From: Candidatus Kuenenbacteria bacterium
Lineage (GTDB): Bacteria > Patescibacteriota > Patescibacteriia > UBA2196 > GWA2-42-15
Direction: 5' to 3'
Assembly (NCBI GenBank): GCA_012798565.1
Contig: JAAZMX010000011.1
Location: 1 to 33,893, forward strand
DNA length: 33,893 bases
Shown piece after piece: positions 14,699-31,863 of the stretch. Both the position numbers and the translations under genes were made by a program. Below the pieces are notes generated by a model. The model ran no database searches, was not told the DNA's origin, and worked only from the letters and a program-made list of their open reading frames with translations. Numbering within the stretch: the first letter of the stretch is position 1; every line of letters starts with the position of its first letter.

Positions 14699-14857
14699 CT
14701 TGATAAAATTAAAAGAAAATGATATTCTTCAGGTGTGAATTAAACAAGTCGTTTTGACTTATTTTTGTGTTATTTTGGTCGATTTAAGGCAGATTGGCTC
14801 ACCTGCTACAGCTTTGGCGACTTAGCTCAGCTGGTAGACCTGCCCGCCACAGCCTGA

Positions 14858-14930
14858 GCCGTCTTAGCTCAGCTGGTAGAGCAACGGTTTTGTAAACCGT
14901 AGGTCCTCGGTTCGAACCCGAGAGACGGCT
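14858..14930 (+). tRNA. tRNA-Thr (anticodon TGT)
   Basis: Complete 73-nt cloverleaf: acceptor GCCGTCT/AGACGGC, D-arm TAGCTCAGCTGGTAGAGC, anticodon stem ACGGT/ACCGT with loop TTTGTAA (anticodon TGT), T-arm CTCGG-TTCGAAC-CCGAG with its standard loop, discriminator T. CCA is not encoded. Confidence 0.95.
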
Positions 14931-14960
14931 GAGGCGATGGTAGGCGGGGCAACGCTTTTG

Positions 14961-14990
14961 TCTCCCAGAGGGAGATGTCCCTTAGGGACA
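14961..14990 (+). repeat. Two tandem 15-nt hairpins in the anticodon loop of the broken tRNA-Thr copy
   Basis: TCTCCC-AGA-GGGAGA (14961-14975) and TGTCCC-TTA-GGGACA (14976-14990) are perfect 6-3-6 hairpins placed end to end. Removing exactly these 30 bases restores TTTTG|TAAACCGTAGG, the normal tRNA-Thr anticodon-loop sequence. Confidence 0.85.
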
Positions 14991-15121
14991 TAAACCGTAG
15001 GTCCTCGGTTCGCCCAGTCATTCGGCCGGGTTCAAACCCGAGAGTCGGCTCCATTAAATCATTAAATCAAGAAAACAAAAAATTAATAAAATAATTATTT
15101 GATTATTAACTTAGCAATAAT

Positions 15122-15719: not shown

Positions 15720-15877
15720 TTTATATTATTAAATTACTAAATTGTTTCATTGTTGGGTTGTTAAGTTGCCAGGTTGCTCCAAAGAAAGATTGGGCTTTGA
15801 AATTTGAGATTTGAAATTTATTTGGAAATTGGAAATTGGGATTTGGAAATTAAAAATTTTTTTTAAAAATTTTTCTT
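15720..15877. repeat. A/T-rich degenerate tandem repeat region
   Basis: Degenerate short units of the types TTGTTAAGTTG (15725-15780) and GAAATTTGAGATTT / GGAAATTGG (15797-15850), ending in a near-palindrome of A and T runs (15850-15875). No ORF, RNA or promoter is evident. Such imperfect units usually reflect slippage in intergenic DNA. Confidence 0.6.
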
Positions 15878-15899
15878 GCGGGTGTCGTATAGTGCCGTG

Positions 15900-15923
15900 A
15901 CCTGTCATTCGCGAATGACAGGT
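15900..15923. repeat. 24-bp perfect palindrome in the D-loop of the tRNA-Trp copy
   Basis: ACCTGTCATTCG followed by its exact reverse complement, CGAATGACAGGT, without a loop. Its core CCTGTCA-N8-TGACAGG is shared with the element at 15949-15970. Confidence 0.85.
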
Positions 15924-15935
15924 GGGGCTACAGGG

Positions 15936-15987
15936 GTCTCACCCGTTCCTGTCAGCCGCAACTGACGGGACGACTGACGGGTGTCTC
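15936..15987. repeat. 42-bp element with 6-bp terminal inverted repeats and 5-bp direct repeats
   Basis: The 42 bp at 15941-15982 begin with ACCCGT and end with ACGGGT (exact inverted repeats). They enclose a second hairpin TCCTGTCAG / CTGACGGGA (15947-15970, one G-T pair). The element is bounded by GTCTC at 15936-15940 and 15983-15987, as expected of a target-site duplication. Removing the element and one GTCTC restores the tRNA-Trp anticodon loop. Confidence 0.78.
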
Positions 15988-16000
15988 CAAAACCTCAATT

Positions 16001-16252
16001 ATATTTTATGTTTATATTTTAGAACTTAATGACATAAAAAATAAGAAATTTTATATTGGCTACACTTCTGACTTGAGAAAACGGATATTAGAACACCTTT
16101 CTGGTACTACAAAAACCACCAAGGGTAGAAACTTAAAGTTAGTTTATTATGAGGCTTATACCGATAAATATCTAGCTTTAAAAAGGGAAAAGGGGCTAAA
16201 GTCTAGTGGGTCAGTATATATGTCTTTAATTAAAAGATTGGGTTACAAATAA
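16001..16252 (+). pseudogene. GIY-YIG endonuclease ORF lacking a standard start codon
   Basis: Translation from 16004 gives FYVYILELNDIKNKKFYIGY, the GIY (YVYI) and YIG motifs, then LRKRILEH with the catalytic-type Arg, YYEAYTDKYLALKREKGLK with the expected Glu, and a stop at 16250-16252 (82 residues). This is the complete length of the small stand-alone GIY-YIG family (UPF0213/YhbQ-like). The codon where the family has ATG is ATA (16001-16003); no in-frame ATG, GTG or TTG lies between the upstream stop at 15890 and the domain. It is therefore either decayed or uses a rare start. It sits between the truncated and intact tRNA-Trp copies. Confidence 0.75.
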
Positions 16253-16257
16253 TTGAT

Positions 16258-16328
16258 GCGGGTGTCGTATAATGGTAGTACAGGGGTCTCCAAAACCTCT
16301 AGCGGGGGTCCGATTCCCTCCACCCGTG
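16258..16328 (+). tRNA. tRNA-Trp (anticodon CCA)
   Basis: 71-nt cloverleaf: acceptor GCGGGTG/CACCCGT (one G-T pair), anticodon stem GGGGT/ACCTC with loop CTCCAAA (anticodon CCA), T-arm GGGTCCGATTCCCTC, discriminator G. CCA is not encoded. The anticodon shows that UGA is not read by this tRNA. Confidence 0.93.
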
Positions 16329-16341
16329 TTTTAGCCTTTTA

Positions 16342-16365
16342 AGCCCCACCTTTGGTGGGGTTTTT
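16342..16365 (+). terminator. Terminator after tRNA-Trp
   Basis: CCCCACC (16344-16350), TTT loop, GGTGGGG (16354-16360), then TTTTT. It closes the tRNA/rpmG region and marks the left border of the accessory genes. Confidence 0.9.
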
Positions 16366-16423: not shown

Positions 16424-17824
16424 ATGAAATATTTAGTCGTTAATGCTCCAAATTTTCCACTAAGTAATTCCTCTATTCTGATAGAACCGGTGGATGCCTT
16501 GACCATTGCTACCTGGATACAGCATAACCACAACGACGTCTCTTTTATTGACCTAGACCGTTTTGGGCTCGATGCCATAAACGATTTAGCCGCCAATTAC
16601 AAAGTAGCATTAGTGGTTTTTGACTACCTGATAGCACTATATAGTTCAGAAGGCGTTAACCATTTAGGAAGTTTATTTTCCGCATTAGCAAAACGAGCTG
16701 AATATATTTTATTTGTTGGTCGTATCGCGACATATTTTCCTTATGAAGTTTTAGATAAATTTCCCGAAGTATACGGATGCATTATTGGTGAGCCAGAGGT
16801 TGTTTTGGCTGATCTGTTTAAATACAAGGATTTGCGTTTATTAAAAAATAATCCCCAGATTATTACTCGCGAAAGTAAACTTGATGGCTCTAAATTATTT
16901 TCTAACAATAAGGGAATAAACATTTATGACTTATTTCCCAAATTTGGCCCGATTGCCAATAGAAAATTGTGCCAATTTGACAAATACATAGATGTTCACT
17001 CCATTATTGCTAGCCGAGGTTGTAGCGGGCGCTGTAAGTTTTGTAGCACGGGTGGTTATTTGGGAAACTGGAAGGCCGCTTCACCGGAATTAGTTCTGTC
17101 GGAAATTAAACACCTAATAAATTTAGGAACTCATAAAATTATTTTTTTGGATGATAATTTCTCCAATGATCAAAATCGTATTACTAAAATTTGCGAAATG
17201 ATCATACAAGAAAAGATTGATATAACTTGGGGTTGTTTGTGTAGAATTATTGATCTCAATGAAGATATAATTCAACAGATGCATAAGGCTGGTTGTCGGT
17301 GGATACATTTTGGGATAGAACATGATCAACAAACTCGCTTAAAATTGGGTAAGAATTTTTCCGATGAAGATGCTATTAGAATTATCCAATTTGCTCAAAA
17401 AATTGGTGTTCGTATCCGAACGAGTTGGATATTGGATTTGTTGGAGGCTACTGCTAATAGTGTAAAAAATACTTTCGAACTAGCCAAAATAATATCCAGC
17501 TATGAAATCAAATTGCATTTTTTGGCTCTAAGGCCTGGTAGTAAATATTATGACCAGGTAAAATTTCCGAAGTCAATTTTTAATAATAATAACGTTAACG
17601 AGATATTTATTCACAAGGGGTCACCCTTTAATACTTCATCTAAAGAGCTGGAGCTGAGCATAGTGAACCAGTTCGAGAAATTTAAGTTAGAAATGTGCGA
17701 TATTGGTTATCAATGGGTTCCAGATGCAAGGTTTTGGGACAAATTTAATAACCGAGAAGCCTTACCAAATGAAAAATTTTTTTCAACCAGTATTATGCGT
17801 TATGGTCTTGGCTGGGTAAGATAA
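16424..17824 (+). CDS. B12-binding-type radical SAM protein
   Basis: 466 residues. The N-terminal ~190 residues resemble the Rossmann-like cobalamin-binding domain found in B12-dependent radical SAM enzymes (MKYLVVNAPNFPL..., EPVDALTIATWIQHN...VSFIDLDRFG, YGCIIGEPEVVL). The radical SAM core follows with C200-x3-C204-x2-C207 (RGCSGRCKFCS), KIIFLDDNFSND and FGIEHDQQTRLKLGK. The usual GLPGET-like segment is divergent (ILDLLEATANSV). The family methylates or rearranges unactivated carbons in natural products, cofactors and lipids; substrate unknown here. The ATG at 16424 is preferred over an upstream TTG at 16352, which lies inside the terminator. It is first in a three-gene + strand cassette. 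Confidence 0.87.
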   Translation: MKYLVVNAPNFPLSNSSILIEPVDALTIATWIQHNHNDVSFIDLDRFGLDAINDLAANYKVALVVFDYLIALYSSEGVNHLGSLFSALAKRAEYILFVGRIATYFPYEVLDKFPEVYGCIIGEPEVVLADLFKYKDLRLLKNNPQIITRESKLDGSKLFSNNKGINIYDLFPKFGPIANRKLCQFDKYIDVHSIIASRGCSGRCKFCSTGGYLGNWKAASPELVLSEIKHLINLGTHKIIFLDDNFSNDQNRITKICEMIIQEKIDITWGCLCRIIDLNEDIIQQMHKAGCRWIHFGIEHDQQTRLKLGKNFSDEDAIRIIQFAQKIGVRIRTSWILDLLEATANSVKNTFELAKIISSYEIKLHFLALRPGSKYYDQVKFPKSIFNNNNVNEIFIHKGSPFNTSSKELELSIVNQFEKFKLEMCDIGYQWVPDARFWDKFNNREALPNEKFFSTSIMRYGLGWVR

Positions 17825-17893
17825 TAATTGTAGTTTTTATTTTTTATTAATAAACTAAAATAATTTAGCCAAAACAAAAAATAAAATTTTAAT

Positions 17894-17900
17894 AAAGGAG
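17894..17900 (+). promoter_or_regulatory. Strong Shine-Dalgarno site before the GluRS-like gene
   Basis: AAAGGAG lies seven bases before the ATG at 17907. A similar AAGGAG (18865-18870) precedes the third gene. Most core genes in the window lack such sites. Confidence 0.75.
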
Positions 17901-17906
17901 TGGGAT

Positions 17907-18860
17907 ATGAAAAAAATAATAGTCAGAACAGCCCCCAATATTTCTCTCAACGCCGGCCATTATGGGCATGTTTTAACTTTTTTGGTTGCGCACTGGGTTG
18001 CTATAGCTTTGGGAGGAAGAGCAGTGGTGCGGATTGATTGGCAACTGAAAACCAAAGGTAGCATGCATAGAAGCGCCAGTAACCGCGAACTAGAAGAAAG
18101 GCAACTTGGCTTTGATAGAATTTGCCATTTATCCAAATTGTGTGGTATATCAGAGGTAATTGACGAATATGGCATTCGTTTTTCCCTTGATGGCCAAAAA
18201 CGATCTCCCAAATATAGGGTTTTCAAAGATCGGGAGAATAATATTCCTATTATCTATGATTATGGTTGGGACACGTTAGGGGAAGAGGAATTAAGGTCAT
18301 TTTTAAGCTCATCTTCTTTCGAACTGGCGCGCTTGCCATGGGATAGTGTCGATAAAAGACTGCCCTTAATTATGGAGCATACACACATATGTTTATCTTC
18401 TTTCCCCGGAAAGTATCTCCCCAGATTAAAGGAAATATGTATTGCAACAGACCAACTTCCACGCCGTTTTCATAAAGCTTATTGTCATCTGCAGATGGAC
18501 AGCTTATTGGGAGTGACTCATGTTATACGCGGGGATGATTTCCATTCAAATAGGGTCGCCAATGTCCACGAAAGAAGTTTAAATCAAGAATGGGGTATTC
18601 CGCTGTTCCCGATAATTAGGATTCCTCTGGTATACTGCAATGGCCAAAAAATAAGCGCATCCGAAGATGACGGCATAATCGGTCTATTCCCGACCAGCAA
18701 AGAACAGATTGAAAATATGGTGACAACGGTCATCAAACCGAAGTATTTAAGACATTTCTTGCCTGTTCTTGACGGCCCCTGGTTCGCAGAATTGTTAAAA
18801 TCAGATCAACCCTTATTAGACGCCCCAATTTGGTCTTATAAAGAATTATCGGCAAAATAA
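17907..18860 (+). CDS. Glutamyl-tRNA-synthetase-like catalytic-core protein (divergent)
   Basis: A 317-residue class I aminoacyl-tRNA-synthetase-like protein of the GluRS/GlnRS type. The N-terminus VRTAPNISLNAGHYGHVLTF corresponds to the R-x-A-P...HIGH region, with HYGH (H18, H21) in place of HIGH. GGRAVVRIDW matches the next strand. LGVTHVIRGDDFHSNR is the most diagnostic segment (GITHVIRGEDH in GluRS). The KMSKS loop reads QKISAS (about 247-252): the first Lys is kept but the second is Ala. There is no anticodon-binding domain, and I see no zinc-binding cysteine cluster as in GluQ-RS (YadB). It probably activates a carboxylate (Glu or another) for a tRNA or non-tRNA acceptor, or has lost ligase activity; the altered loop makes ordinary GluRS activity unlikely. 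Confidence 0.8.
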   Translation: MKKIIVRTAPNISLNAGHYGHVLTFLVAHWVAIALGGRAVVRIDWQLKTKGSMHRSASNRELEERQLGFDRICHLSKLCGISEVIDEYGIRFSLDGQKRSPKYRVFKDRENNIPIIYDYGWDTLGEEELRSFLSSSSFELARLPWDSVDKRLPLIMEHTHICLSSFPGKYLPRLKEICIATDQLPRRFHKAYCHLQMDSLLGVTHVIRGDDFHSNRVANVHERSLNQEWGIPLFPIIRIPLVYCNGQKISASEDDGIIGLFPTSKEQIENMVTTVIKPKYLRHFLPVLDGPWFAELLKSDQPLLDAPIWSYKELSAK

Positions 18861-18878
18861 AAGCAAGGAGAATGGGTA

Positions 18879-19385
18879 ATGAATAAAAGAAATAATCAAA
18901 ATTTAATTTTTGTGATATGTGGGCCATCTGGCGCGGGGAAAACAAGTATAAAGGTAGCATTGCTGGCTACGTGTCATAATCTTAAAATTTGCCCTTCAAT
19001 TACCACTCGCCCTATTAGCGAAGAAGCAGCCCCAGATATCCAAGAATATCATCACATTGGCCAGGAAGAGTATCATCGTTTGTATAGAGCCGAGAAACTT
19101 ATCAGCAAACGAGTACAGCAATTTGGTTTCTATTACGGCCTCAAGCTCGGCGAGATTGATGATATTTTGAATGCAGGATATCACGTTTTGCTAGAGACAA
19201 CCTTATGGGGTATAGGCCAATTAAAAAGATATTTTAACAATGTTATCTCGATTTTTATTGGTCCACCATCTCTCAGAGCCGTGCGTGAACTTAGAACCGT
19301 AATCATGAACGGCTGGCACTCCTACGAAATGGACGCGGCCGTCAAAATGCTCCGCCACGAGTCGCCGTTTGATTGGATTGAGTAA
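18879..19385 (+). CDS. Guanylate-kinase-like P-loop protein (short, divergent)
   Basis: 168 residues with the guanylate kinase layout. Walker A is GPSGAGKTS (15-23), the nucleotide-binding SITTRP follows, then EYHHIGQEEYHRLYRAEKLISKR and FGFYYGLKL in the positions of the GMP-binding YFF...EF and GNYYGT segments. GYHVLLETTLWGIGQLK corresponds to the Walker-B-like VLLEIDWQGA, and SIFIGPPSLRAVREL to IFILPPSLEEL. Several GMP contacts look changed: RPxR is RPIS and the Glu of FLEWAE is absent. It is also ~20-40 residues shorter than housekeeping GMK and its lid/C-terminal part is reduced. Third gene of the cassette, 18 bases after the GluRS-like stop; ends 12 bases from the convergent helicase gene. 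It may phosphorylate a different small molecule. Confidence 0.8.
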   Translation: MNKRNNQNLIFVICGPSGAGKTSIKVALLATCHNLKICPSITTRPISEEAAPDIQEYHHIGQEEYHRLYRAEKLISKRVQQFGFYYGLKLGEIDDILNAGYHVLLETTLWGIGQLKRYFNNVISIFIGPPSLRAVRELRTVIMNGWHSYEMDAAVKMLRHESPFDWIE

Positions 19386-19397: not shown

Positions 19398-22112
19398 TTA
19401 AAGACTAAATTTATATTTTAATAAATATGCGTCCTTTTTGTTAAATTTTTGTTCCAACGCTCCTATGATTTTATTCTGAGTTTCGGGCGTCCAATAAATT
19501 TTCAACTTCTTTTTTGCTCTTGTAATCGCTGTATAAAATACGTTGTGAGAGATTCTCTCTTCTGTTTCATTCGTAATAACAATTTTTACAGAATCGTATT
19601 CTAAACCTTGCGCCTTATGGATAGATACAGCATAAGCAACCTGAAAAGGTACGATATCTGATGCAGAGTCATCGTCATCTTCATCTGTGCTCCTGAGCTT
19701 GTTAACACTAAATCGGATGACAGATGTGGCTTCTTCAATGCTATCCAACAACTCCAGATCATCATATCCTCGAATATCTAACTCAGAAATCACTTTATCA
19801 ATTTGAATATCAAATTGGATTCTTTCCTCGAATATCTGAATATTAAGTATTTTTCCTTTTAGATTGTTATGGATTACTGATCCGAACCTATTGGATTCAT
19901 TAAATAAAACGGGGTCGTCAATTTTGTATGTATGAACCCCCCACGCTACTGGTTTTTTCTCGTTACTTTCCTGTAAAAATCTGTTGATGTTATTTATACC
20001 ATAAAATCCATCGTAATTTAGGCACAAAATTATTTCATCATCTTCGGAATGTTTAAAAATTGAATCATCTAATTTACTCGAATATTTGTTTTGTGTTATA
20101 TGCTCATCAATATCTTCCTCGAGGTTTCGAACTTTGTCCCATAATTTCAACAGGTCATTATTATTTTTTGCGCGCCAGGGGACGGTTAATTCAATTGCGG
20201 ATGATTCTGGTACAAAACTCTTGGCTATATAAAACCAATTTCCAAATCGAATTGATTCTATCTGGAATATATCTCCGACAAGAATTAGGGCCCCAAACGA
20301 TGCCTTCCTAAGTATGTCACGCATATCTATATTGCTCACAACGCTACACTCATCAATAATTAAAATATCAAACTCTGTTCTTTCTCCATTTCCGTTCAAA
20401 AAACTTCTTATTGTTTTAAATTCGGTGTTTTGAGCAGTGATTCTGCTTCTTAAATTACTAACCGCAGAGTGTGTATTCGCCAAGTAAAGTTTTGATCTTT
20501 CGTTATGAAATTTTGAGATATGCTCTATCAACTTTGTCTTCCCCGTTCCTGCGGCACCATAAATTAACGACACTTTGGAAGCCGTAAACATACCCCTAAG
20601 CGCTGTTTTTTTCTGAGAGCAATCAACATCCGAATCCGGTGAGGCTAGCCATGCATTAATTGAATTCGAGTAGTTTTTTATACCTAATGCCGATAAATCT
20701 TTTAACTTTCTAACAATTTCAATAACAGCGTTTTCGTATCCGGTAATGTAAACGTGATCTTTATATATTTCAAGTTTGCGCTCTCTCTGGGTTTCAGTAC
20801 CCTGGTAAAGTAAACTATTAAATTTATCTATGAGTCCATTAATATCCTCAAAATGATTTATGTCTTCTATCGGTGTGTACAACCATCCCTTAATTTCCGC
20901 ATTGCTTGTTATACGTCGAGCAAATAATTCATGCTCCCTACCAGTGATATCTATACAATCTAACAGATCAGAAATTACAGGAGTATGCTTTACGGGGCAA
21001 CTAGCAAAAGGCATTTCGTCGAAAGGAATACACTCATACAGAAGATTTAAGTTTGATAATTTAAAGTTACCGTCCCTATTATATTGCTCTTTTATAACCC
21101 TATTATTTAGGTTGTAAAGTAAGTATCTAAGTACATTGGTCCCCGGGGAGCGCTTCTGCACAAATTCACGACTTTTATCTAACAAATCAAGTATTCGAGT
21201 CGTTGTAGCCTTTTGGGTAATTCTATTTTTAAATCTATTGTAGTAATTATCAGGAAAATCTATTATTTCAATCAAGTTCAAACCGGTTTCTGTCAAAAAA
21301 GACATTATTTCATCGTATTCTTTAGTTCTGCTGTATTCTTTAGAGTCTGAAGTAAAGATATTTTCATAATTTTTAAATTCACACGGGCGTATCGAAACTT
21401 CCCAATCGTCAATAATCTGTATCGGCATTCTCTTACCCGACACTTCAATGTAATCTCTGCTAACAATGAACTTCACTGCATAGTTCTCAGTTATTTCCAA
21501 TTTTGTAAAAGCAATAAGCCTATCAAACTTGCGAGTCTTGTCATCAGCAATTCTAAAGGTTACTTCATAAAATATTTCTTGATTTACAAAAAAAGGTTTT
21601 ACTTTTTGTATATAAAATCTTTCGTTATATTCACTACTTGCCGGTCTTGATTGCGGCTCTTTTATTTTTTTTGCTATTTTCTCATAGTACTCATTGAGTG
21701 TCCGATCCGTATTTAATGGGAACTTATCGATATTATTTAAAACCTCAAAATTATAGGCTGTCTTTAAGAAAGATTTAATTTTAAGTAGATATTCATAGTA
21801 CTTCAACATTAACCTTTCTGAAACTTCTTCGTCGGTCGCATAGTGTGATTTTGAATGTTGAAGAAATTTATGAAATTTACTTAAAAATCTTAAATTAGCT
21901 CTTGATGCGACGTAATTTTTTGCTTTATCTTCAAAAATCTCATAACTATATTCGGTTTCGCCAGCAGCCTTGACAGAGATAGCCTCAACAAAAGTCCTTA
22001 GTTTATCCAAGATGTTTTGTGATAAAAATCCTCGCTGGTCCGCACCAAACGTATTAATTAGTTTACATATTGATTCGTTGGCTATATTGATTTGTTCATC
22101 TACTTTTCTCAT
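19398..22112 (-). CDS. SF1 (RecD/UvrD-like) helicase, last gene of the defence operon
   Basis: 904 residues. The N-terminal half (about 1-500) has no motif I recognise and may be a recognition or effector domain. The C-terminal half is an SF1 helicase: Walker A GAAGTGKTK (about 518-526), motif II DILIIDECS (about 580-588), motif III-like LVGDIFQIESIRFG, motif IV/V-like ELTVPWRAK, and the UvrD C-terminal motifs YAVSIHKAQGLEYDSVKIVI and FYTAITRAKKKLKIYW. The last resemble the UvrD_C_2 domain of RecD-type enzymes. The start ATG overlaps the stop of the membrane-protein gene by 4 bases (ATGA), so the two are translationally coupled. By eye it is richer in A/T than hsdR and hsdM. A 12-base gap with a weak TCTTT/AAAGA hairpin separates it from the convergent GMK-like gene. 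Confidence 0.85.
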   Translation of the reverse strand: MRKVDEQINIANESICKLINTFGADQRGFLSQNILDKLRTFVEAISVKAAGETEYSYEIFEDKAKNYVASRANLRFLSKFHKFLQHSKSHYATDEEVSERLMLKYYEYLLKIKSFLKTAYNFEVLNNIDKFPLNTDRTLNEYYEKIAKKIKEPQSRPASSEYNERFYIQKVKPFFVNQEIFYEVTFRIADDKTRKFDRLIAFTKLEITENYAVKFIVSRDYIEVSGKRMPIQIIDDWEVSIRPCEFKNYENIFTSDSKEYSRTKEYDEIMSFLTETGLNLIEIIDFPDNYYNRFKNRITQKATTTRILDLLDKSREFVQKRSPGTNVLRYLLYNLNNRVIKEQYNRDGNFKLSNLNLLYECIPFDEMPFASCPVKHTPVISDLLDCIDITGREHELFARRITSNAEIKGWLYTPIEDINHFEDINGLIDKFNSLLYQGTETQRERKLEIYKDHVYITGYENAVIEIVRKLKDLSALGIKNYSNSINAWLASPDSDVDCSQKKTALRGMFTASKVSLIYGAAGTGKTKLIEHISKFHNERSKLYLANTHSAVSNLRSRITAQNTEFKTIRSFLNGNGERTEFDILIIDECSVVSNIDMRDILRKASFGALILVGDIFQIESIRFGNWFYIAKSFVPESSAIELTVPWRAKNNNDLLKLWDKVRNLEEDIDEHITQNKYSSKLDDSIFKHSEDDEIILCLNYDGFYGINNINRFLQESNEKKPVAWGVHTYKIDDPVLFNESNRFGSVIHNNLKGKILNIQIFEERIQFDIQIDKVISELDIRGYDDLELLDSIEEATSVIRFSVNKLRSTDEDDDDSASDIVPFQVAYAVSIHKAQGLEYDSVKIVITNETEERISHNVFYTAITRAKKKLKIYWTPETQNKIIGALEQKFNKKDAYLLKYKFSL

Positions 22113-23674
22113 AATTCTTTTTCTTCTTTTTTATTCTCTGATTCATTCCCATCTTTGGTTTTTTGAGCCTCGTCCTTCTGCGCCTTACTGCGCTCTCTTA
22201 GAGCTCTTAGTATCTCTTTCCAATGCTCTGTTTTTCTGTTTTCGTCCGAATCCTTTGGGTAAGTAAGATTATTTAATTCAGCTTGCCATTGATCAAGATT
22301 AGTAACTGAAAAGACTCCACCGAATATAAATAGCGCCAGATTGATGGCCTCTTTTAATTGTTCTTCGTTTTGCCGAACAAAATCTGTTTCGACGCCGTCA
22401 CCCCATCCAGTGAATACTCGACCTACATAACCAAAATTTTGATCGCTCTCTACAATAGCCTTCATGCGAGAATCAGACCATGGACGCATAACGAAAGCGA
22501 GTATCTTTGCCCAGATAATAGGATCAACGCTCGGAAATAATTCTTTAGCTACTTCATCTAAATCCTTATCCCACTCTTTTCCTCCACTCCAAATACGAGA
22601 ACGAGACCACTCAAGAAATCTATTAAGCCACACTCTTGAAACAATGTGATCTTTTAGATTGGAAATTGTGACTTTCCATTTTGCAGGAAAATAATGACCC
22701 CAAATATCGTATGCTTCTTGTGACTTTGGCGATTGATCGAGAATATCGTTATAAATTGGTAAGTGTTCAATGTAAACGTATGTGTGTTGCGAACCGACAA
22801 TCTGCTCTGTAGCATGCTTATCGATGTGATCTTCCAAGTGTTTAAAATAAGAGAAAGAATTGCCAGTAATTCCTGTTAGGGCTTCTTTAGTTACATATCT
22901 AATTATTTGATCAATGATATGATCCGCCTCAAAGGTTTTAATATCAACTGCCGTCTCGTTTCCGTCTTCTTTATCTTTAGCAAACTTTGAAAATTGTTTT
23001 TTCCAAAATATAAAATGCCACTCAAGAATTTTTGGGAAAAACTCGGGAAAGACAAGAATAAAAATTTTATTTCGATTTTGTATGTTGCTGGAAAAATTCT
23101 CAAGGAGCTTGGGGAGAATATCCCACTCTTCTTTATCGTCAGATTGTAAGATTGAGTCGATCTGAGCTGAAAAGGCGATAAAGAAATCCTTTTCTACGAA
23201 TCGCTTATTTTTATTCCAATCAGTACTCCAAAAATTGCCCCATGAGACAATCTTGTCTTGTGGGGACAATGGTAGGAATGGCTTTGTAAAATAGCTCAAT
23301 CTGAAATCGTCCTTATCGCCTTTAACCCACACATAAAGTCGAAGTAATGTCCAGAAAAGCACGAATAGGGCAACGGCCCAAACAAGAAAGATGATCGCTT
23401 TAATTTCCGTATTATGAATACCCATAAAAAATGGGCTGACGACTACCACCAGAAGTATAAAAAGCGATGGCTTGAATAACCAAACATGATCTAGAGCAAC
23501 ATGTAAATCTAAAAAATTGCCCTTGCGTTCACCATCACCAAGATGATGGATAAATATACCGATAGCAAATGAAATTAAAAGAGTTAAAACTGCAATACCT
23601 GCACCCTGCATTAATTCGGGCAAAGAAGAATAATTAAGAAAACTCCATATTGTACATACAAAATATTTTTCCAT
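22109..23674 (-). CDS. Three-TM protein with large soluble domain, unknown function
   Basis: 521 residues. Three hydrophobic helices are clear in the first quarter (about 25-46, 70-92 and 95-122). The remaining ~400 residues are soluble, rich in Trp, Phe and charged residues, and end in a strongly charged Lys/Glu tail (QKTKDGNESENKKEEKEL). I recognise no enzymatic motif. It starts 4 bases after the protease stop (TAAAAATATGG) and overlaps the helicase start by 4 bases. A membrane partner coupled to a helicase at the end of a type I restriction operon suggests a two-component defence module, but that is inference. Confidence 0.8.
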   Translation of the reverse strand: MEKYFVCTIWSFLNYSSLPELMQGAGIAVLTLLISFAIGIFIHHLGDGERKGNFLDLHVALDHVWLFKPSLFILLVVVVSPFFMGIHNTEIKAIIFLVWAVALFVLFWTLLRLYVWVKGDKDDFRLSYFTKPFLPLSPQDKIVSWGNFWSTDWNKNKRFVEKDFFIAFSAQIDSILQSDDKEEWDILPKLLENFSSNIQNRNKIFILVFPEFFPKILEWHFIFWKKQFSKFAKDKEDGNETAVDIKTFEADHIIDQIIRYVTKEALTGITGNSFSYFKHLEDHIDKHATEQIVGSQHTYVYIEHLPIYNDILDQSPKSQEAYDIWGHYFPAKWKVTISNLKDHIVSRVWLNRFLEWSRSRIWSGGKEWDKDLDEVAKELFPSVDPIIWAKILAFVMRPWSDSRMKAIVESDQNFGYVGRVFTGWGDGVETDFVRQNEEQLKEAINLALFIFGGVFSVTNLDQWQAELNNLTYPKDSDENRKTEHWKEILRALRERSKAQKDEAQKTKDGNESENKKEEKEL

Positions 23675-23678
23675 ATTT

Positions 23679-24404
23679 TTAATATTTCCACTCCTCGTAA
23701 GAGAGAATAAAGCGGTTCAATTCTTCCTTAGTGCTTTTCCACTTGGGGAGATATTTTGTCATTAAGGCCACGAATTTATCGTCGTGTTTTTTCTCAATCA
23801 GATGCAAGAGTTCGTGAACAACAACATATTCGGTACAGGCTATCGGCTTTTTAGCCAACTCCAAGTTTATAAGGATTCGGCCGCGTTTGTGATTACATGT
23901 GCCCCAACGGGTTTTCATCCGCTTTATTGCCCAAAATTTGGCCTGTACGCCAATTTTCTTCTGCCATTTGACAATAAGGCCATCAACGACTTTGTGCAGT
24001 TCTTGCCGATACCAATCAAGCATTACTTCGCGTCGTTTGGCTATTGGACTTTTTGGCCGGACTTGTAAGATGAGTTTATTTTTTCCTTTTAAAATAACTG
24101 TCGGAACTTCATTCTTATAAACCAATTCCAAACGGTAGCGCTTGCCAAAAAGATAATGGCTCTCGCCGGAAACGTAATCGCGTTTTGTTTGCCGTTCCTG
24201 GCCAGCAAACTTGGCTTGCTGTTTCTTGATCCACGGGAGTCGTAAAGCGATAAGGGTCCGAATTGCGTCATCCTTCATGCGCTCAGGCGCTGAAATACGT
24301 ACCCAGCCGTTGGGAGGCAGAACGGAAAGATGTAAATTCTTGATTGGCTTGCGGACGACCAATGCTTCAACAGTGCCAAGTTGTAAGTAGGAATTAGTAC
24401 TCAT
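23679..24404 (-). CDS. YgjP/SprT-like metal-dependent hydrolase (DUF45, M48-type)
   Basis: 241 residues from the ATG at 24404; a TTG at 24425 is possible but lies deeper inside hsdR. The zinc-protease motif is VVHELLHLIEKKHDDKF (HExxH near residue 197-201, with the downstream His). It is preceded by the family-typical MKTRWGTCNHKRGRILIN and followed by a C-terminal MTKYLPKWKSTKEELN. YgjP-like proteins are repeatedly found next to type I restriction subunits, but their role there is not established; proteolytic control of restriction is one idea. The start overlaps the end of hsdR by 11 bases, indicating coupling. Confidence 0.9.
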   Translation of the reverse strand: MSTNSYLQLGTVEALVVRKPIKNLHLSVLPPNGWVRISAPERMKDDAIRTLIALRLPWIKKQQAKFAGQERQTKRDYVSGESHYLFGKRYRLELVYKNEVPTVILKGKNKLILQVRPKSPIAKRREVMLDWYRQELHKVVDGLIVKWQKKIGVQAKFWAIKRMKTRWGTCNHKRGRILINLELAKKPIACTEYVVVHELLHLIEKKHDDKFVALMTKYLPKWKSTKEELNRFILSYEEWKY

Positions 24405-27400
24405 TTTGATTTTTGATAATCTCAAAAAGATTCTTTAAATCATCCTCGGAAATATCTGACAAAACCTTTTTAATCTCAATCTTGATAGCGCGTTCTTTCA
24501 AACGGTTGCCACGCCAATCAGACTGGCGCGCTTCCAATACCGCTTCATGAACTTGCTTCGCTTTCTCCACATCTTGCCCGAGGTTATCGTAAAGAGCGCG
24601 AAGGGCCGGAGTATTAATGTCGGCTCCGACCGATTCGTCCATCGGATTTTTAACCTTCTTGGATAAAGAGATTATTTCTTTCAGGTATTCGCGATATTCA
24701 ATGTCAGCCTGCTTGCGCCTTTTAACCAGCTCATCCAATAATTCGGACATCCGCAAATAATATTTCGGGTTAGTCGGCATTTCGTCGATGATCAACTTGC
24801 GAACGTTATTCTCAATAGTCTCGGCCATGGCCTCCTGGCTTTGCTGGAAAGCTTCCGGCAATTCACCGAGAGCGTCTTCGCCTTTTTTAACGATCAAATC
24901 AACCAATGTCATATCGTTAAAAGCCGACAATCGTTCGCTTTCTTCGGCGGTAATATAACGATCAATCAAAACACGCATCGCCGGTTCGTATTTTTTAAGA
25001 TCAATATAATCACCGCTGGCCAGTTTTACTTCCATGCGCACTGATTCAAAGTGTTTTACTTCGCGCTCAATTGCTTGAGACTGATCTTTGGTATAGCCTG
25101 CACTGGCCATATCATTAGCTAAGTCGGCATAAGCCCGGAGTAAATGACTAACGGATTTATATAATTTAACCCGTTTAATTTCATTCTCTTTAAGCGAGTA
25201 AGGATTTTCCACATCACCACAGAAGTAGCGGATATACGAGGCCGAGTCTTTAGGCGGAGCGACCGGTTCGCATAAAGCCCGAACCATTTCTAAGGCTTCA
25301 TCCAAATCTTTCTTTCCTTCAACAAAACGGTCTTTCAAAAGCCCGAGCACATCTTCTTTATCAAAACCATCAAAAGCGCCGGAAGTATATTCAGTAACCG
25401 CCTTTTCCAATTTCTTAAATAGATCGCGGTAATCCACAATATAGCCATATTCTTTATCTTCACCGTCCAATCGGTTCACACGGCAAATAGCCTGGAATAA
25501 GCCGTGATCCTGCATATTCTTATCGACGTAAAGATAAGTAGCCGGCGGCGCGTCAAATCCGGTCAGTAATTTATCAACCACGATCAAAAGCTGCATCTGG
25601 CCTGGTTGCTCAATGAACTTTTTCTTAGCTTCCTTTTCGAAGTCGTCCGTAGTTTTGCCATTTAACATCTTTTGATAGACGGCATACTCGCGAGTGTCGG
25701 TAGATAATGCCCCTGGTTCATAAGAAGTTACTACCGCGCATTTGGTAAATCCCTGCGATTGGAAAATTTCATAATACTGGCAGGCCTCGTAAATACTGCT
25801 GGTTACAAGCATGGCATTGCCTCGACCGTTAGCCAGACGATCCTTTTTATAGAAGTCATCCAGAATATCAAAAACAACTTTTTCTAAACGTGATCGGGAG
25901 GAAAGCAAAGACTGCATCGTGCCCCAGCGTCGCTTTAATTCGGCCTTAGCCACATCGGTAAGTCCTTGGGTGCGTTCCTCAAACCATTCGTCAATTTTTG
26001 CTTGGGAGGTGATGTTCTGATCAACGCGGCGAGCTTCGTAACGTAAATCCAAAACCACTTTGTCGGCCACAGCCTCGTTGTATTTGTAAGTATGAATATA
26101 TGGCCCGAACATACCGACACTGTTTTTCTTATCAACTCGCAAAAGAGGCGTCCCGGTAAAGCCGATAAAAGTCGCATTGGGCAAAATTTCTTTCATGGCG
26201 TCGTGCAATTTGCCGGTGTGCGATCGGTGGCATTCATCTACAAAGACGAACATATTGCCTTTGGCGGAGAAGTTCTTCGGCAAATTCTTGCGGAGTTCCG
26301 CCACATCAATTTCAAAATTTCCTTTGGCGTTGACTCGGCCAAATTTATGCACCAGCGAACACAACAGCCATTTATCTTTTTTGTTTAATTCATCCAAAAG
26401 TTCTTTGGCGCTTTTCACCCGATGAACCTGTTCGCTGACACCTTTAAAAACCTTTTCAATTTGTTCGTCCAATTCGGTGCGGTCGGTTAAAAGCAACACC
26501 CGGGAGTCCTCAATATTTTCATGTATCCATTTGGCCAGCCAAACCATGGTCAAAGATTTTCCCGACCCTTGCGTATGCCAAATGATTCCGCCCTCATGAC
26601 GCTTAACAAAATCCTGCGTTGCCTTAACTCCGAAAAACTGGTTGTGCCTGCAAGTCTTTTTTATACCGCTGTCAAAGACGATAAAATCGTGGATTATTTC
26701 CAAAAGACGCTTCTTCTCGCACATCTGCAAAACCGCCCGGTCAAGACGAGATTCGTCGCCAAGTCCGGCTTCTTTCCAGGTCATATAGTATTCTTCGGTA
26801 GTTTCCGTAGTGCCGTATTTCAATCCCTCGGTATCATTGCCGGCCATTACCAACTGGATCGTTCCGAAAAATGTCTTGATGAATTCTTCTTTTTGGTTGC
26901 CGATATTCTGGCGAATACCTTCGGAAACCGAGACAATGCTTCGCTTGAGCTCAATCACACCCACTGCGATGCCGTTCACATACAAGACAATGTCCGGACG
27001 CTTGGTGCGGTTGCCTTTAATTGTTACTTCTTCGGCAATGGCAAAATGATTCTTTTCCGGATGCGCCCAGTCAATCGGCCAGACTGTCTGATAATTTTCG
27101 CCTACGTCTTCGCGGACTTTAATGCCATAACGAAGCAAGCTATAAGTTTCGTAATTCAAATCATACAAGCTCAAATGCGGACGATTGGCCGTCTTTTTAA
27201 GCTCATCAATCGCTTTATTGATTAAATTTTCGCTATGGCCGGCTCGCAATAGAAACGGACGCAAATAGGCTTCCTCGACGTTGTTATTTTCCTCCCGTTC
27301 CTCAAAATTGCCGAGATAGTCGTAGCCGAGCCGATCCTTAAACAAGGAAACGATGCGATCCTGTGTTTTGCGTTCCAGCTGGCCGACTTTGGTTGTATTT

Positions 27401-27411
27401 TGTGTATCCAT
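24394..27411 (-). CDS. hsdR: Type I restriction enzyme R subunit
   Basis: 1005-residue motor/nuclease subunit that translocates DNA and cleaves it away from unmethylated sites. The PD-(D/E)xK nuclease is RPDIVLYVNGIAVGVIELKR (about 140-160: D and E-x-K). The SF2 translocase has Walker A TQGSGKSLTM (about 280-289), VLLLTDRTELDEQ, motif II VDECHRSH (about 389-396), motif III FTGTPLL and a later VDKLLTGFDAPPATYLYVDK with AICRVNR (motifs V/VI). The C-terminal ~250 residues are helical and presumably contact HsdM/HsdS. Full length for the family and apparently intact. It starts one base after the hsdS stop (TAA-T-ATGG). Confidence 0.97.
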   Translation of the reverse strand: MDTQNTTKVGQLERKTQDRIVSLFKDRLGYDYLGNFEEREENNNVEEAYLRPFLLRAGHSENLINKAIDELKKTANRPHLSLYDLNYETYSLLRYGIKVREDVGENYQTVWPIDWAHPEKNHFAIAEEVTIKGNRTKRPDIVLYVNGIAVGVIELKRSIVSVSEGIRQNIGNQKEEFIKTFFGTIQLVMAGNDTEGLKYGTTETTEEYYMTWKEAGLGDESRLDRAVLQMCEKKRLLEIIHDFIVFDSGIKKTCRHNQFFGVKATQDFVKRHEGGIIWHTQGSGKSLTMVWLAKWIHENIEDSRVLLLTDRTELDEQIEKVFKGVSEQVHRVKSAKELLDELNKKDKWLLCSLVHKFGRVNAKGNFEIDVAELRKNLPKNFSAKGNMFVFVDECHRSHTGKLHDAMKEILPNATFIGFTGTPLLRVDKKNSVGMFGPYIHTYKYNEAVADKVVLDLRYEARRVDQNITSQAKIDEWFEERTQGLTDVAKAELKRRWGTMQSLLSSRSRLEKVVFDILDDFYKKDRLANGRGNAMLVTSSIYEACQYYEIFQSQGFTKCAVVTSYEPGALSTDTREYAVYQKMLNGKTTDDFEKEAKKKFIEQPGQMQLLIVVDKLLTGFDAPPATYLYVDKNMQDHGLFQAICRVNRLDGEDKEYGYIVDYRDLFKKLEKAVTEYTSGAFDGFDKEDVLGLLKDRFVEGKKDLDEALEMVRALCEPVAPPKDSASYIRYFCGDVENPYSLKENEIKRVKLYKSVSHLLRAYADLANDMASAGYTKDQSQAIEREVKHFESVRMEVKLASGDYIDLKKYEPAMRVLIDRYITAEESERLSAFNDMTLVDLIVKKGEDALGELPEAFQQSQEAMAETIENNVRKLIIDEMPTNPKYYLRMSELLDELVKRRKQADIEYREYLKEIISLSKKVKNPMDESVGADINTPALRALYDNLGQDVEKAKQVHEAVLEARQSDWRGNRLKERAIKIEIKKVLSDISEDDLKNLFEIIKNQNEY

Positions 27412-27412
27412 A

Positions 27413-28651
27413 TTATTTTAATATTATTTTTCCAGTTAAAAGTGTTTGCATCATGCCTTGCTTGATATCTTGGTATTTCGTAAGTTGCGACTCCAATTTT
27501 TCAATTTCTGATTCCATATCCGTAAGAATTTGAGCGATTGCTTTTTGTTCTTCAAATTCCGGAAAGCTTACTTCCAAATTCGCCAGATCGTTTGCGTATA
27601 AGTGAAAAACAGTTGATCCTTTAACTAGCTTGAGGACAGAGTTTTTATTTTGCGTAATGAAGTAGCTCAAAAATACTCCGTCATGACCGGAATGGAGTCG
27701 GATGACCAAAATTCCTCCACCAAGAACCACGCCATCCTCCCGAATACAGCTGGCGGTTGCCAATCCTCTGGGAGTTACATCGGAGGTCGGCATTAACACA
27801 TCGTTCGCCTTTGAATAAAAATGATTACCTGCGACATTCGTCTTGCTTTTTATTTCTCCGATCAATTCTTTGTAACCGGTAAATAGCTGGCCGTAGTGGA
27901 TGCATCTATAAGCACCAGCATCATTCAAGTCCGCCTTTGAGAGACCTTGTCCACGTTCGAAATCCGCAATCTCGCCAAGTGTTTGAGTATTCCATTTGCC
28001 CTTAAATCCAGAGAGACGTCGCTTGCCGGAGAGTAATTCCTGCATCGCACCTTGCTTGATGTTCTTTTTCTTTTCGATCAGGCTTCTGGTTTTACTGATA
28101 AGTAAATCTATATCAGTAATTGCATCGGAAATTGCGGACTGTTCAGATTTTGATGTTGGATAAGCAACTAAAAAATCAAGAACGTCACCTTTAGAAAGAT
28201 TTAGTTGAGATGAGCCTTGTCCTGCTGTCTTGAAATATTTCTGATGGCAATTTATATACTTAGATAGAAAATAAGGAGAAACATTCCGCACATTCCTTAA
28301 TGCACCTACCCGCTGGTTTAAGACATATCGGTTGCTTTCTGGAATTAAGTCAGTAAGTCCGAGAAAATTACCATGAGCTACATCGCTCAGGATCATGATT
28401 AGGTCATTCTTGCTCAAAGAGTTATCGCTAAACTTTACTCTAAGATGATCCTCTTTGAGCCGACCATTTATGTCTAAACTATTCAAAGTCATCAAATAGT
28501 AATCGCCACTGTTATCAATATACCTTTCGAGCGATTTACCATTTTTGTAATCAGCAAGTTCACCTAATTTTTTTATCTCCCAATCCTCCGGGATCACGCC
28601 GATCTCGGTTTTTTTATATCCTTTTGGAATTGTCTGAGTTACGTTCATCAT
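27413..28651 (-). CDS. hsdS: Type I restriction specificity subunit
   Basis: 412 residues with two target-recognition domains in tandem. The first starts PKGYKKTEIGVIPEDWEIKKLGELADYKNGKS and is followed by a coiled-coil spacer (ITDIDLLISKTRSLIEKKKNIKQGAMQELLSGKRRL). The second starts KGKWNTQTLGEIADFERGQ and ends with the matching spacer (EEQKAIAQILTDMESEIEKLESQLTKYQDIKQGMMQTLLTGK). The two spacers, each ending in KQGxMQxLL(S/T)GK, are the classic symmetric HsdS layout, so the target should be a bipartite sequence. Two ATG codons in a row (28651 and 28648) leave the exact start open. Follows the 254-residue gene by 4 bases. Confidence 0.95.
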   Translation of the reverse strand: MMNVTQTIPKGYKKTEIGVIPEDWEIKKLGELADYKNGKSLERYIDNSGDYYLMTLNSLDINGRLKEDHLRVKFSDNSLSKNDLIMILSDVAHGNFLGLTDLIPESNRYVLNQRVGALRNVRNVSPYFLSKYINCHQKYFKTAGQGSSQLNLSKGDVLDFLVAYPTSKSEQSAISDAITDIDLLISKTRSLIEKKKNIKQGAMQELLSGKRRLSGFKGKWNTQTLGEIADFERGQGLSKADLNDAGAYRCIHYGQLFTGYKELIGEIKSKTNVAGNHFYSKANDVLMPTSDVTPRGLATASCIREDGVVLGGGILVIRLHSGHDGVFLSYFITQNKNSVLKLVKGSTVFHLYANDLANLEVSFPEFEEQKAIAQILTDMESEIEKLESQLTKYQDIKQGMMQTLLTGKIILK

Positions 28652-28655
28652 AAAA

Positions 28656-29420
28656 TTATTTTGTCATTAGTTTCTGGGCTCTTTTATAATTCTCAGTATT
28701 CATCATTTCTGTCTTAAGCCGATTATTTTCATCAACTAGCTTCTTAAATCTGGGCCCAAAGTCACCAATCAATTTAAAGACCTTATATTTCTGGTTAACC
28801 CCATAGAATAAATCCATAAGCCCCAAAGCTGTATTGGCGACAAACCATAAATCGGTTTTTATCCAGTAGCCATTTTCCGGGTCAAAGAAAGTCGTCTTAA
28901 AACCAGCATCTTCAATTGGCTTCATTTCAAAATTTTGAAATGCATATGCAATGTTGGAATGAGCGCCAGCGCCACTTATCATCTTTTTTAATCTGCGAGT
29001 TTCGTCGGCTTTAACTTTAAAGTTATTATCGAGCCACTGATACATCGCTTTTTCATGTTTGTCCTCCACGGAAATTATTCCATTAGCGTCTTTACTACAA
29101 AACTTGTCTTGGTCTTCGTTACCCAACGCGTAGGCCGCCCACTGTGCCGCTTCGATTACATATCTTAGATTCATGCTTGTCTGAATGTGGTGTCTCCTTA
29201 TCGCGGAGAATAAAGCGAGGGTGTGATATTTTCTGATTTGAAAAAGAAAAGCGACAAATATAAATTTTGCCGGATCATCAATCGACTTAATAAAGTCGTT
29301 CAAAAGATGGTTAAATTCTGAGGCGTTAATGAAATAATCGCCGTAGCATTCCGCACCATGAAGAACCAACTCATGTTCACTGGTAAGAATATCTCCAATT
29401 GTGTCCTGTTTAAATTCCAT
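28656..29420 (-). CDS. Unknown protein encoded between hsdM and hsdS
   Basis: 254 residues, soluble, largely helical with many aromatic residues. The middle has IRKYHTLALFSAIRRHHIQTSMNLRYVIEAAQWAAYAL, an Arg/His-rich helix pair that resembles the helical cores of DUF5677/HEPN-like proteins, but no R-x4-6-H active site can be assigned with confidence. The C-terminus is charged and possibly coiled-coil (KKLVDENNRLKTEMMNTENYKRAQKLM). It starts one base after hsdM (TAA-T-ATGG) and is 4 bases from hsdS, so it belongs to the restriction operon and is expected to act with it. I do not recognise a named family. Confidence 0.8.
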   Translation of the reverse strand: MEFKQDTIGDILTSEHELVLHGAECYGDYFINASEFNHLLNDFIKSIDDPAKFIFVAFLFQIRKYHTLALFSAIRRHHIQTSMNLRYVIEAAQWAAYALGNEDQDKFCSKDANGIISVEDKHEKAMYQWLDNNFKVKADETRRLKKMISGAGAHSNIAYAFQNFEMKPIEDAGFKTTFFDPENGYWIKTDLWFVANTALGLMDLFYGVNQKYKVFKLIGDFGPRFKKLVDENNRLKTEMMNTENYKRAQKLMTK

Positions 29421-29421
29421 A

Positions 29422-31863
29422 TTATTTCAAATTAAATCCCATCTTGGAGAGATGCTCTTCGACTTTTTCGGTAAGATCGGCAACGTCATCCGAGATTGCC
29501 GGCATCGGTTCGGCATAGCGTTCGGCCAATTCTTTGACCCGGCCGGCCAACATCTGGGAGAGCCGGTCCACTTCACCCAAAACCCGAGCGGACAACTCAT
29601 CCATCCACTTGCGCTCAACGACCAGCGTTTTGATTTCTTCATCGGTAAGAGCCGGATATTTTACAAGCACCTTTTTCTCCAAATCTTTCTCGGCATCTTT
29701 AATCGCTTTTTTGGTGTCGGCTTCTTTTTCAAACAAAGCCGAATATTTTTCAAGAATCAAAAGCTCATCATCAACATCAGAATCATCCGAGGTTTTACTA
29801 ATTTCTTTAATTCGTCTCTGCACGTTAGCTTTGCTTATTTTATCGTTATCGATAACTTCAGAAAGCAAGCCGTCTTCACCACCATGTTCGTCTTTAAGCG
29901 CATCCATATCCACTCCGACTTGCTCAAGCGCGGCATTTAGCTCATCAAGTTTTTTCTGTTCATCGGCAAAATAAACTTTAATGGCCAAAGAGATTGGAAT
30001 AAGCCGGCCTTCCAAACCGGTCAAACCCTCAATATCTTTTTTCTTGCCTTTATTTTCTTTCTGCAAACGGATCACTTCGTTGCCGGATTTCCAGCCGTCA
30101 ACGGTGATAATATGGGTATCATCCTGTATCGTTTCCTCCCAGTAATTCATCAAATGCTGGTAGACATCGTATTTATCAATCAAGTGCAGATCGGAATATG
30201 TCCCGAGCAAGCCGTCTGATATTTTTTGGATGACTGCCTTGGGATGATTGGCACCGGAGATAGTTTTAAGGAAATCGACTGAATCCTTCTGCCACTTGGT
30301 GAACGAATCCATAACTTTCTTCCGGAATGTTTCAAATTCCGGATGATTGAGAATGGTTTTCTTTATTTCATCATGAGCGATCAAGAGCTCGCTATATCCT
30401 TTACGGCCGTTAGTTTTGAAAAGAGAATTTTTGAGCGTCGGACAAATATCCCAATAAGCGGACAGGGCTTTAATATCGGCGTCAGGGATTCCGCCTTTGA
30501 GATGCGCTTCAATGTCTTGAATGTCTTCGGCTTCCTGCGTATCAATGTAGCGCGGGAGATTAAGATTATATTCATTCTTTTTTATTTCGTCATTGGCAAC
30601 GAAGCGGGAGAATTTCGGCAATTCCAATTTATTCTCCCAGACGTCCACAATCTTGCGGATGTCCTGCTCACGCAAACGGTTTTTATTGCCATCTTTGATA
30701 AAGCCCTTAGAAGCGTCAATCATAAAGATGCCCTGGCGATTACCTGATTCGGATTTATCCAAAACGATAATGCAGGCTGGGATGCCCGTGCCATAAAACA
30801 GGTTAGCCGGCAAGCCAATGATGCCTTTGATATAACCACGGTCAATAATATTCTTGCGGATTTCCGCTTCGGCATTGCCGCGGAACAAAACACCGTGAGG
30901 CAAAATAACTGCGCCGGTCCCGGTGCTCTTGAGAGATTTTAAAATATGTAAAAGGAAAGCATAGTCGCCATTTTTCTTAGGAGGGATGCCGAAGCCGTCA
31001 AAACGGCCAAAAATATCTTGTTCAGGATTAAAGCCGTTCCGCCAAGCTTTATAAGAAAATGGCGGATTAGCAACCACGTAATCAAAAGTCTTGAGAGCGC
31101 CGTTGTCGGTGAAAAGCGGACCGGAAATGGTGCTTTGGCCTTTTTTGATAACGGCTGTCGGCTTGGAGTGAAGCCACATATTGAGTGTGGCTAACCCGGC
31201 GGTGGCATTATCAAGTTCCTGGCCGAATATAGATATTCCTTTCGGCGCTTCGTCGGCGACTTTCAAAAGAAGCGAACCGCTGCCACAGGTCGGATCGTAA
31301 ACCGACTGCATTGTGCCGGTAGCTTTATGAGCATCAATCACTTTGGCCATGATGCGAGAAACTTCGGCCGGGGTATAAAATTGGCCTTTGCTTTTTCCGG
31401 ATTCAACGGCAAAGTGCTTCATCAGATATTCATAAGCATCGCCTAAAAGATCGTCTCCCTCGGCCCGGTTCTTACTGAAATTCAGATCAGGATTTTCGAA
31501 AATTGCAATAAGGTTGGAAAGACGATCCTGCATGTCTTTGCCTTTACCGAGCTTATCTTCATCATTAAAATCAACCGCGTCAATTACGCCATGCAATTCG
31601 TTAGCTTCGGCCAGTTTGCTTAAAACTTTGTTGATACCTTCGCCGATGTCCGGCTTGCCTTTGAGTTTAATAAGATCGGAAAAACTTCCACCGTCTGGAA
31701 TTTCCACCAGCTGATTTGATTTGCCGGCGTATTTGTCCGAGACATAGCGTACGAACAAAAGCACGAGAACGTAATCCTTATACTGCGAAGCGTCCATGCC
31801 ACCGCGAAGTTCGTCGCAGGCCGACCATATTGAGCTATAGAGTTGAGATTTTTTGATTGCCAT
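29422..31863 (-). CDS. hsdM: Type I DNA methyltransferase subunit with long C-terminal extension
   Basis: 813 residues. The N-terminal helical domain (SSIWSACDELRGGMDASQYKDYVLVLLFVRYVSDKY) and the N6-adenine methyltransferase core are standard: motif I YDPTCGSGSLLLK (about 190-202) for SAM binding, motif IV VVANPPFSYKAW (about 260-271) as catalytic NPPF, and GIIGLPANLFYGTGIPACIIVLDK. HsdM proteins are usually about 500-550 residues. Here about 280 extra C-terminal residues form a charged, largely coiled-coil region (KEISKTSDDSDVDDELLILEKYSALFEKEADTKKAIKDAEKDL), probably for subunit assembly; similar long HsdM forms exist. One base separates it from the DUF4145 gene upstream and from the unknown gene downstream. 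Confidence 0.95.
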   Translation of the reverse strand: MAIKKSQLYSSIWSACDELRGGMDASQYKDYVLVLLFVRYVSDKYAGKSNQLVEIPDGGSFSDLIKLKGKPDIGEGINKVLSKLAEANELHGVIDAVDFNDEDKLGKGKDMQDRLSNLIAIFENPDLNFSKNRAEGDDLLGDAYEYLMKHFAVESGKSKGQFYTPAEVSRIMAKVIDAHKATGTMQSVYDPTCGSGSLLLKVADEAPKGISIFGQELDNATAGLATLNMWLHSKPTAVIKKGQSTISGPLFTDNGALKTFDYVVANPPFSYKAWRNGFNPEQDIFGRFDGFGIPPKKNGDYAFLLHILKSLKSTGTGAVILPHGVLFRGNAEAEIRKNIIDRGYIKGIIGLPANLFYGTGIPACIIVLDKSESGNRQGIFMIDASKGFIKDGNKNRLREQDIRKIVDVWENKLELPKFSRFVANDEIKKNEYNLNLPRYIDTQEAEDIQDIEAHLKGGIPDADIKALSAYWDICPTLKNSLFKTNGRKGYSELLIAHDEIKKTILNHPEFETFRKKVMDSFTKWQKDSVDFLKTISGANHPKAVIQKISDGLLGTYSDLHLIDKYDVYQHLMNYWEETIQDDTHIITVDGWKSGNEVIRLQKENKGKKKDIEGLTGLEGRLIPISLAIKVYFADEQKKLDELNAALEQVGVDMDALKDEHGGEDGLLSEVIDNDKISKANVQRRIKEISKTSDDSDVDDELLILEKYSALFEKEADTKKAIKDAEKDLEKKVLVKYPALTDEEIKTLVVERKWMDELSARVLGEVDRLSQMLAGRVKELAERYAEPMPAISDDVADLTEKVEEHLSKMGFNLK

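Follow-up and report, generated by a model that had tools for sequence, protein, structure and literature searches.

Three adjacent genes for a radical SAM, a GluRS-core-like and a guanylate kinase-like protein in a Candidatus Kuenenbacteria genome, and a radical SAM family heading an ESR-repeat peptide cluster

Overview

The 33,893-nucleotide stretch of Candidatus Kuenenbacteria DNA analysed here (the window) contains three real and unusual genes, which encode a radical SAM protein (gene 1), a GluRS-core-like protein (gene 2), and a Gmk-like P-loop kinase (gene 3). There is so far no evidence that they form a conserved pathway. We tentatively interpret the trio as a lineage-specific tailoring cassette, probably acquired and located in a variable island, that would make or modify a small molecule or a short peptide; this reading is plausible, although we stop short of calling it probable. 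Gene 1 is best placed, with full tree support, as a diverged member of a B12-type radical SAM family, other members of which head a strongly conserved gene cluster in a wide range of hosts.

Gene 1 (16424..17824, + strand) codes for 466 amino acids, with a putative N-terminal B12-type Rossmann region and the cluster motif CSGRCKFC. The product of gene 2 (17907..18860, +; 317 amino acids) carries the motifs HYGH, HVIRGDD, and KISAS, and that of gene 3 (18879..19385, +; 168 amino acids) the P-loop GPSGAGKT. The initial annotation of three adjacent genes on the same strand had the coordinates right; the genes are intact, and the coding frames were confirmed: by codon log-likelihood, with the housekeeping genes of the window as reference, the annotated frame was the best of six for each gene. 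The frame of gene 1 is open further upstream, as far as a TTG at 16352. GGAG-type ribosome-binding sites precede genes 2 and 3.

The radical SAM protein and the ESR cluster

The product of gene 1 matched the Pfam model Radical_SAM with E = 5e-17 (63 bits; cut-off 29.5), and its cluster motif fits the CxxxCxxC pattern. Of its initial assignment as a B12 radical SAM protein, the radical SAM part stands, whereas the Pfam B12-binding domain was unmatched in gene 1. Since this domain was present in 15 of 19 members of the gene 1 family alignment, binding of B12 may be inferred by homology. The radical SAM core and the putative B12-type architecture are common to gene 1 and enzymes of the BchE/HpnJ/PhpK/AprD4 type, but gene 1 reached only 55–88 bits against curated cut-offs of 480–600, and no pathway genes of these enzymes are associated with it.

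One strong match to gene 1 was found in the phylum (G049; 34% over the full length). With an alignment of both proteins as query, 22 full-length homologues were retrieved, which share 30–36% full-length identity with gene 1. A maximum-likelihood tree, which took in 21 of these 22 (the frame-split L061 was omitted), grouped gene 1 with the homologues with 100/100 support, as the outermost member of the clade and on a long branch (1.63). Twenty-four other B12-type radical SAM proteins of the phylum were placed outside the clade; such patescibacterial proteins had been considered as further family members and were rejected, their scores being about half or less. This placement argues for gene 1 as a diverged member of the B12-type radical SAM family that heads the cluster described below. 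At near-invariant family positions, gene 1 displays the changes H73 to Y, P71 to A, and K100 to R.

The genes behind the family radical SAM encode a CoaE-like P-loop kinase, a SPASM radical SAM protein, DUF3419, a small peptide with [SG]ESR repeats, a cyanophycin-synthetase-like ATP-grasp protein, and a class I methyltransferase. We refer to this strongly conserved arrangement, present in loci L041–L062 plus G049/L060 and L035 (for example, L053:6001-11914), as the ESR cluster. In every readable locus, the family radical SAM is followed by a protein with the P-loop nucleotide-kinase fold. DUF3419 was recognised by Pfam in one cluster member and the remaining members were assigned by similarity; the SPASM radical SAM is fused in some loci. 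Gene order varies in L041, with the ATP-grasp gene upstream, and in L055 and L060, where the methyltransferase gene stands ahead of the ATP-grasp gene. The clusters in L043, L044, L056, and L058 end at contig ends.

In most loci that have the small protein, its ESR triplets exceed those of composition shuffles: the observed count was reached by 0–2 of 2000 shuffles, except in L059 (9) and L048 (28). L055 and L060 yielded no small protein in which ESR recurs; that of L060 has GES repeats. The hosts of the ESR cluster include Clostridia, Bacilli, Mollicutes, Gastranaerophilales, an alphaproteobacterium, a phylum-mate of the window genome, and also a Pacearchaeota archaeon, in which the first two genes are readable. 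Open-access literature searches returned no description of this cluster, and one may exist elsewhere. Judged from its gene content, it looks like a new peptide-modification system, for which the repetitive Glu-Ser-Arg peptide would be the target.

The window resembles the ESR cluster in having a P-loop kinase-fold gene downstream of the radical SAM gene. It differs in lacking the SPASM radical SAM, DUF3419, ESR peptide, ATP-grasp, and methyltransferase genes, and its kinase is Gmk-like, whereas that of the ESR cluster is CoaE-like. No SPASM-DUF3419 protein was found in the window genome, nor was there an ESR-repeat precursor close to the trio.

The GluRS-core-like protein

Gene 2 scored below the cut-off of the Pfam family tRNA-synt_1c (PF00749; E = 0.0019; 17.7 bits versus 23.4) and reached 16.2 bits against the 401.75 set for gltX_arch. 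In a profile comparison with hhalign, the GluRS profile aligned with gene 2 over 222 columns (probability 92.9; E = 3.6e-7). The HIGH-like 'AGHYGH', 'THVIRGDD', and 'KISAS' are arranged in the order known from GluRS, and the C-terminus lies about 65 residues past KISAS, while the GluRS rows extend beyond. The description of this protein as a GluRS-like core with no anticodon domain and with KISAS instead of KMSKS is therefore correct: the protein ends early and the motifs are as stated.

Gene 2 shares 19–28% identity with GluRS cores and is far under the family cut-offs. Among the positions invariant in 24 GluRS cores, it retains R7, A9, P10, H18, G20, R42, H205, V206, R208, and S250. It has RIDWQL in place of RIEDTD and KISAS in place of K[IL]SK. 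The catalytic core, the HIGH-like motif, and HVIRGDD are shared with GluRS; the second KMSKS lysine is missing. AlphaFold modelling gave a pLDDT of 56 with GluRS rows as input and 37 for gene 2 alone, the latter model being uninformative. GluRS structures came first in the fold search, but the model on which this ranking is based is weak and biased by the GluRS input rows. Taken together, the profile comparison, the motif order, and the weak-model fold ranking support gene 2 as a relative of GluRS. R7 and R208 correspond to the arginines of Thermus GluRS that bind the side-chain carboxylate of the substrate; since both are retained, a Glu-like acid is suggested as the substrate of gene 2.

GluQ-RS (YadB), which glutamylates queuosine in tRNA-Asp, is likewise core-only. 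Among curated families it comes closest to gene 2 (E = 8.5e-5), and a 2022 review of aminoacyl-tRNA synthetase duplication lists no other paralogue of GluRS (PMC9437257). These points would fit a tRNA- or nucleotide-modifying unit, with gene 2 transferring an amino acid onto a modified base in the manner of GluQ-RS and the kinase and radical SAM protein acting on a nucleotide. However, gene 2 reached only 22.1 bits with the GluQ-RS model NF004315 (cut-off 250) and 17 bits with TIGR03838 (276.7), and the neighbours of the radical SAM family are genes for a putative precursor peptide and an ATP-grasp ligase, not for tRNA modification. We consider such a unit very improbable.

The guanylate kinase-like protein and the housekeeping paralogues

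Gene 3 passed the domain cut-off of the Pfam family Guanylate_kin (E = 6.8e-17; 62.2 bits versus 25.2) and scored 82.4 bits with the Gmk equivalog TIGR03263, the cut-off of which is 160.45. The protein has the general fold of Gmk, an intact P-loop, and the TTR and YYG elements. We take the GMP-binding positions, in yeast numbering, to be S34, R38, R41, Y50, E69, S80, and D98/D100. S34, R38, and Tyr50 are retained. Relative to yeast and E. coli Gmk, R41 is replaced by S, E69 by K/S, S80 by L, and LDIDxQG by LETTLWG, with loss of the LDID acidic pair (D98/D100), which bears out the initial annotation of a small kinase with changed GMP-binding residues. Independent of these two reference sequences are the alignment row of the host Gmk and the matches in the PDB. 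Gene 3 also lacks the last ~25 residues and stops ahead of the VIVND element of Gmk, 13 nt from a convergent neighbour; no downstream frame that would restore the C-terminus was found.

The window genome (1.06 Mb in 75 contigs) possesses a separate GluRS (G000:C43) and a separate Gmk (G000:C45), the latter sharing 33% identity with gene 3. This makes genes 2 and 3 paralogues of housekeeping enzymes, as had been proposed, and with scores of 22.1 versus 250 bits and 82.4 versus 160.45 bits they are not simple orthologues of GluQ-RS and Gmk. The host Gmk (G000:C45:12602-13165; L036:1103-1666) has itself an unusual P-loop, GTSGSGQD, in which the usual lysine is absent; GKD, GED, or GKT occur in its relatives from the same class. 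One genome of this class encodes three Gmk-domain proteins of different architectures within about 5 kb (L196, G397:C30, 5314-10549). These clustered proteins were inspected as relatives of gene 3 and were not close to it.

The loss of the second KMSKS lysine from gene 2, the missing C-terminal ~25 residues of gene 3 with its stop 13 nt from the convergent neighbour, and the weak fold prediction for gene 2 would all be expected of decaying remnants, that is, outgoing paralogues with an inactive GluRS-like protein and a Gmk-like protein truncated at an island junction. Against this, all frames are open and best by codon usage, and the P-loop, HIGH-like, and CxxxCxxC motifs are retained. Human cytosolic TyrRS is active despite a KMSSS motif, so that loss of the second lysine does not in itself imply inactivity of gene 2. 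The motif of the human enzyme is given in PMC2813244. Decay of the trio appears improbable to us.

Search for the trio in other genomes

A six-frame search for gene 2 covered the genomes of the family and order, 380 genomes of the phylum, and 381 of the class, about 750 distinct genomes in total. The earlier proposal of a conserved, dedicated pathway was not supported: relatives of gene 2 were found in none of the ~750 other genomes, and neither gene 2 nor gene 3 adjoins any of the 22 gene 1 homologues. No second genome with the trio was detected at this depth, and no relatives of gene 2 were found in phages, plasmids, or viral contigs. A collection of genome contigs, screened by exact 8-residue matches and thus for close relatives only, also contained none. 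Three weak matches in the class (E about 5e-4 to 1e-3) were ordinary GluRS, as was the single match among the viral contigs (L092). Apparently complete GluRS genes occur on many IMG/VR viral contigs (L092:4130-5620 and L095-L163), that of L092 amid phage-like genes. Viral contigs yielded no relatives of gene 3, and the phage matches to it were of the Gmk type, the best sharing 33%. In agreement with the initial annotation, open-access literature searches turned up no described pathway with this trio.

Genomic context

A tRNA-Trp gene (CCA; 16257..16329, +) lies immediately 5' of gene 1. The interval between them contains a terminator-like hairpin, CCCCACC-TTT-GGTGGGG followed by T5 (16344..16365, +), which was recognised by eye only and was not listed by the consensus terminator scan. 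On the other side, the minus strand of the window (19398-33554) is occupied by a defence island in which a full-length match to the PDC-S53 helicase, a PADLOC candidate system, is accompanied by type I restriction genes (R and S) and a YgjP-like metallopeptidase. With the PADLOC models, genes 2 and 3 were unmatched and gene 1 gave only a generic match at the radical SAM level (26 bits). A genome of the same genus (G005) shares the PGK-enolase-iPGM-nucleotidyltransferase-YceG-L10 block with the window and has different genes after L10, so the trio belongs to a variable segment bounded by tRNA-Trp on one side and the defence island on the other. The 20-kb stretch of G005 that covers the PGK-to-L10 block contains no tRNA. 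The tRNA-Trp gene is the likely island boundary.

Partial copies of tRNA-Thr and tRNA-Trp adjoin the intact genes (14818-15050 and 15876-16329), and a small GIY-YIG-like frame (about 16006-16252) separates the tRNA-Trp fragment from the intact gene; the arrangement suggests that insertions have recurred at tRNA genes. The window also encodes a protein of 1029 amino acids (146-3235, +) that combines M23 peptidase, PKD, and BACON domains with a Por-type secretion tail (E = 4.3e-9); such a protein is unexpected in a small patescibacterial genome.

The main rival to the tailoring cassette, and a strong one, is that the three genes are chance neighbours, namely an acquired radical SAM gene beside an unrelated GluRS-like/Gmk-like two-gene unit, in a segment reaching from the tRNA to the defence island and with no joint action. 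The GC content of gene 1 is 35%, whereas those of genes 2 and 3 (41–42%) are similar to host genes, and gene 1 may therefore have arrived separately. An AT-rich gap of 82 nt (17825..17906, +) separates genes 1 and 2, but only 18 nt lie between genes 2 and 3. The absence of genes 2 and 3 near the 22 homologues, the lack of a second trio, the adjoining helicase and restriction genes, and the different genes after L10 in G005 point the same way. Conversely, the trio lies on one strand with no intervening gene, and the consensus scan listed no + strand terminator-like site in the gap or elsewhere between the trio genes. Chance neighbourhood is a serious possibility, if a somewhat doubtful one.

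A possible tailoring cassette

We nevertheless favour the tailoring cassette, tentatively, because of the intact catalytic motifs and the parallel with the ESR cluster, in which a kinase and a carboxylate ligase also occur. The core motifs are present throughout the trio: CxxxCxxC in gene 1; R7, HYGH, HVIRGDD, and KIS in gene 2; and a P-loop with GKT in gene 3. By analogy, the kinase-like and ligase-like genes of the window may parallel the P-loop kinase and the ATP-grasp carboxylate ligase of the ESR cluster. Also counting for the cassette are the open frames, the close spacing (18 nt) between genes 2 and 3, the separate host GluRS and Gmk, and the placement of the radical SAM protein. Counting against it are the lack of a second trio genome, the GC difference, the changes at family positions in gene 1, the missing second lysine of KMSKS, the end of gene 3 at VIVND, and the weak models of gene 2.

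In the proposed order of reactions, an unactivated carbon would first be modified by gene 1 through a radical mechanism, either methylation or C-C/C-X chemistry. Gene 2 would then adenylate a carboxylate, plausibly that of Glu or a Glu-like acid given the two substrate-binding arginines kept, and the acceptor may be other than tRNA or a tRNA used without anticodon reading. Finally, gene 3 would phosphorylate an acceptor other than GMP. MshC, the CysRS-derived ligase of mycothiol synthesis, is an earlier case in which the core of a class I synthetase has become a small-molecule ligase (PMC9437257); it differs from gene 2 in synthetase family and pathway. A bolder version, which we hold to be unlikely, is that the gene 1 family marks out a so far undescribed peptide-modifying system of wide, scattered distribution and that the trio is a stripped alternative version of it for a different substrate, with a GluRS-core ligase in place of ATP-grasp and a Gmk-type in place of the CoaE-type kinase.

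If the tailoring cassette is real, the GluRS fold would gain a new use, with its core acting as a ligase beside a radical SAM enzyme. The radical SAM family and its ESR cluster are a more consequential result than the trio itself.
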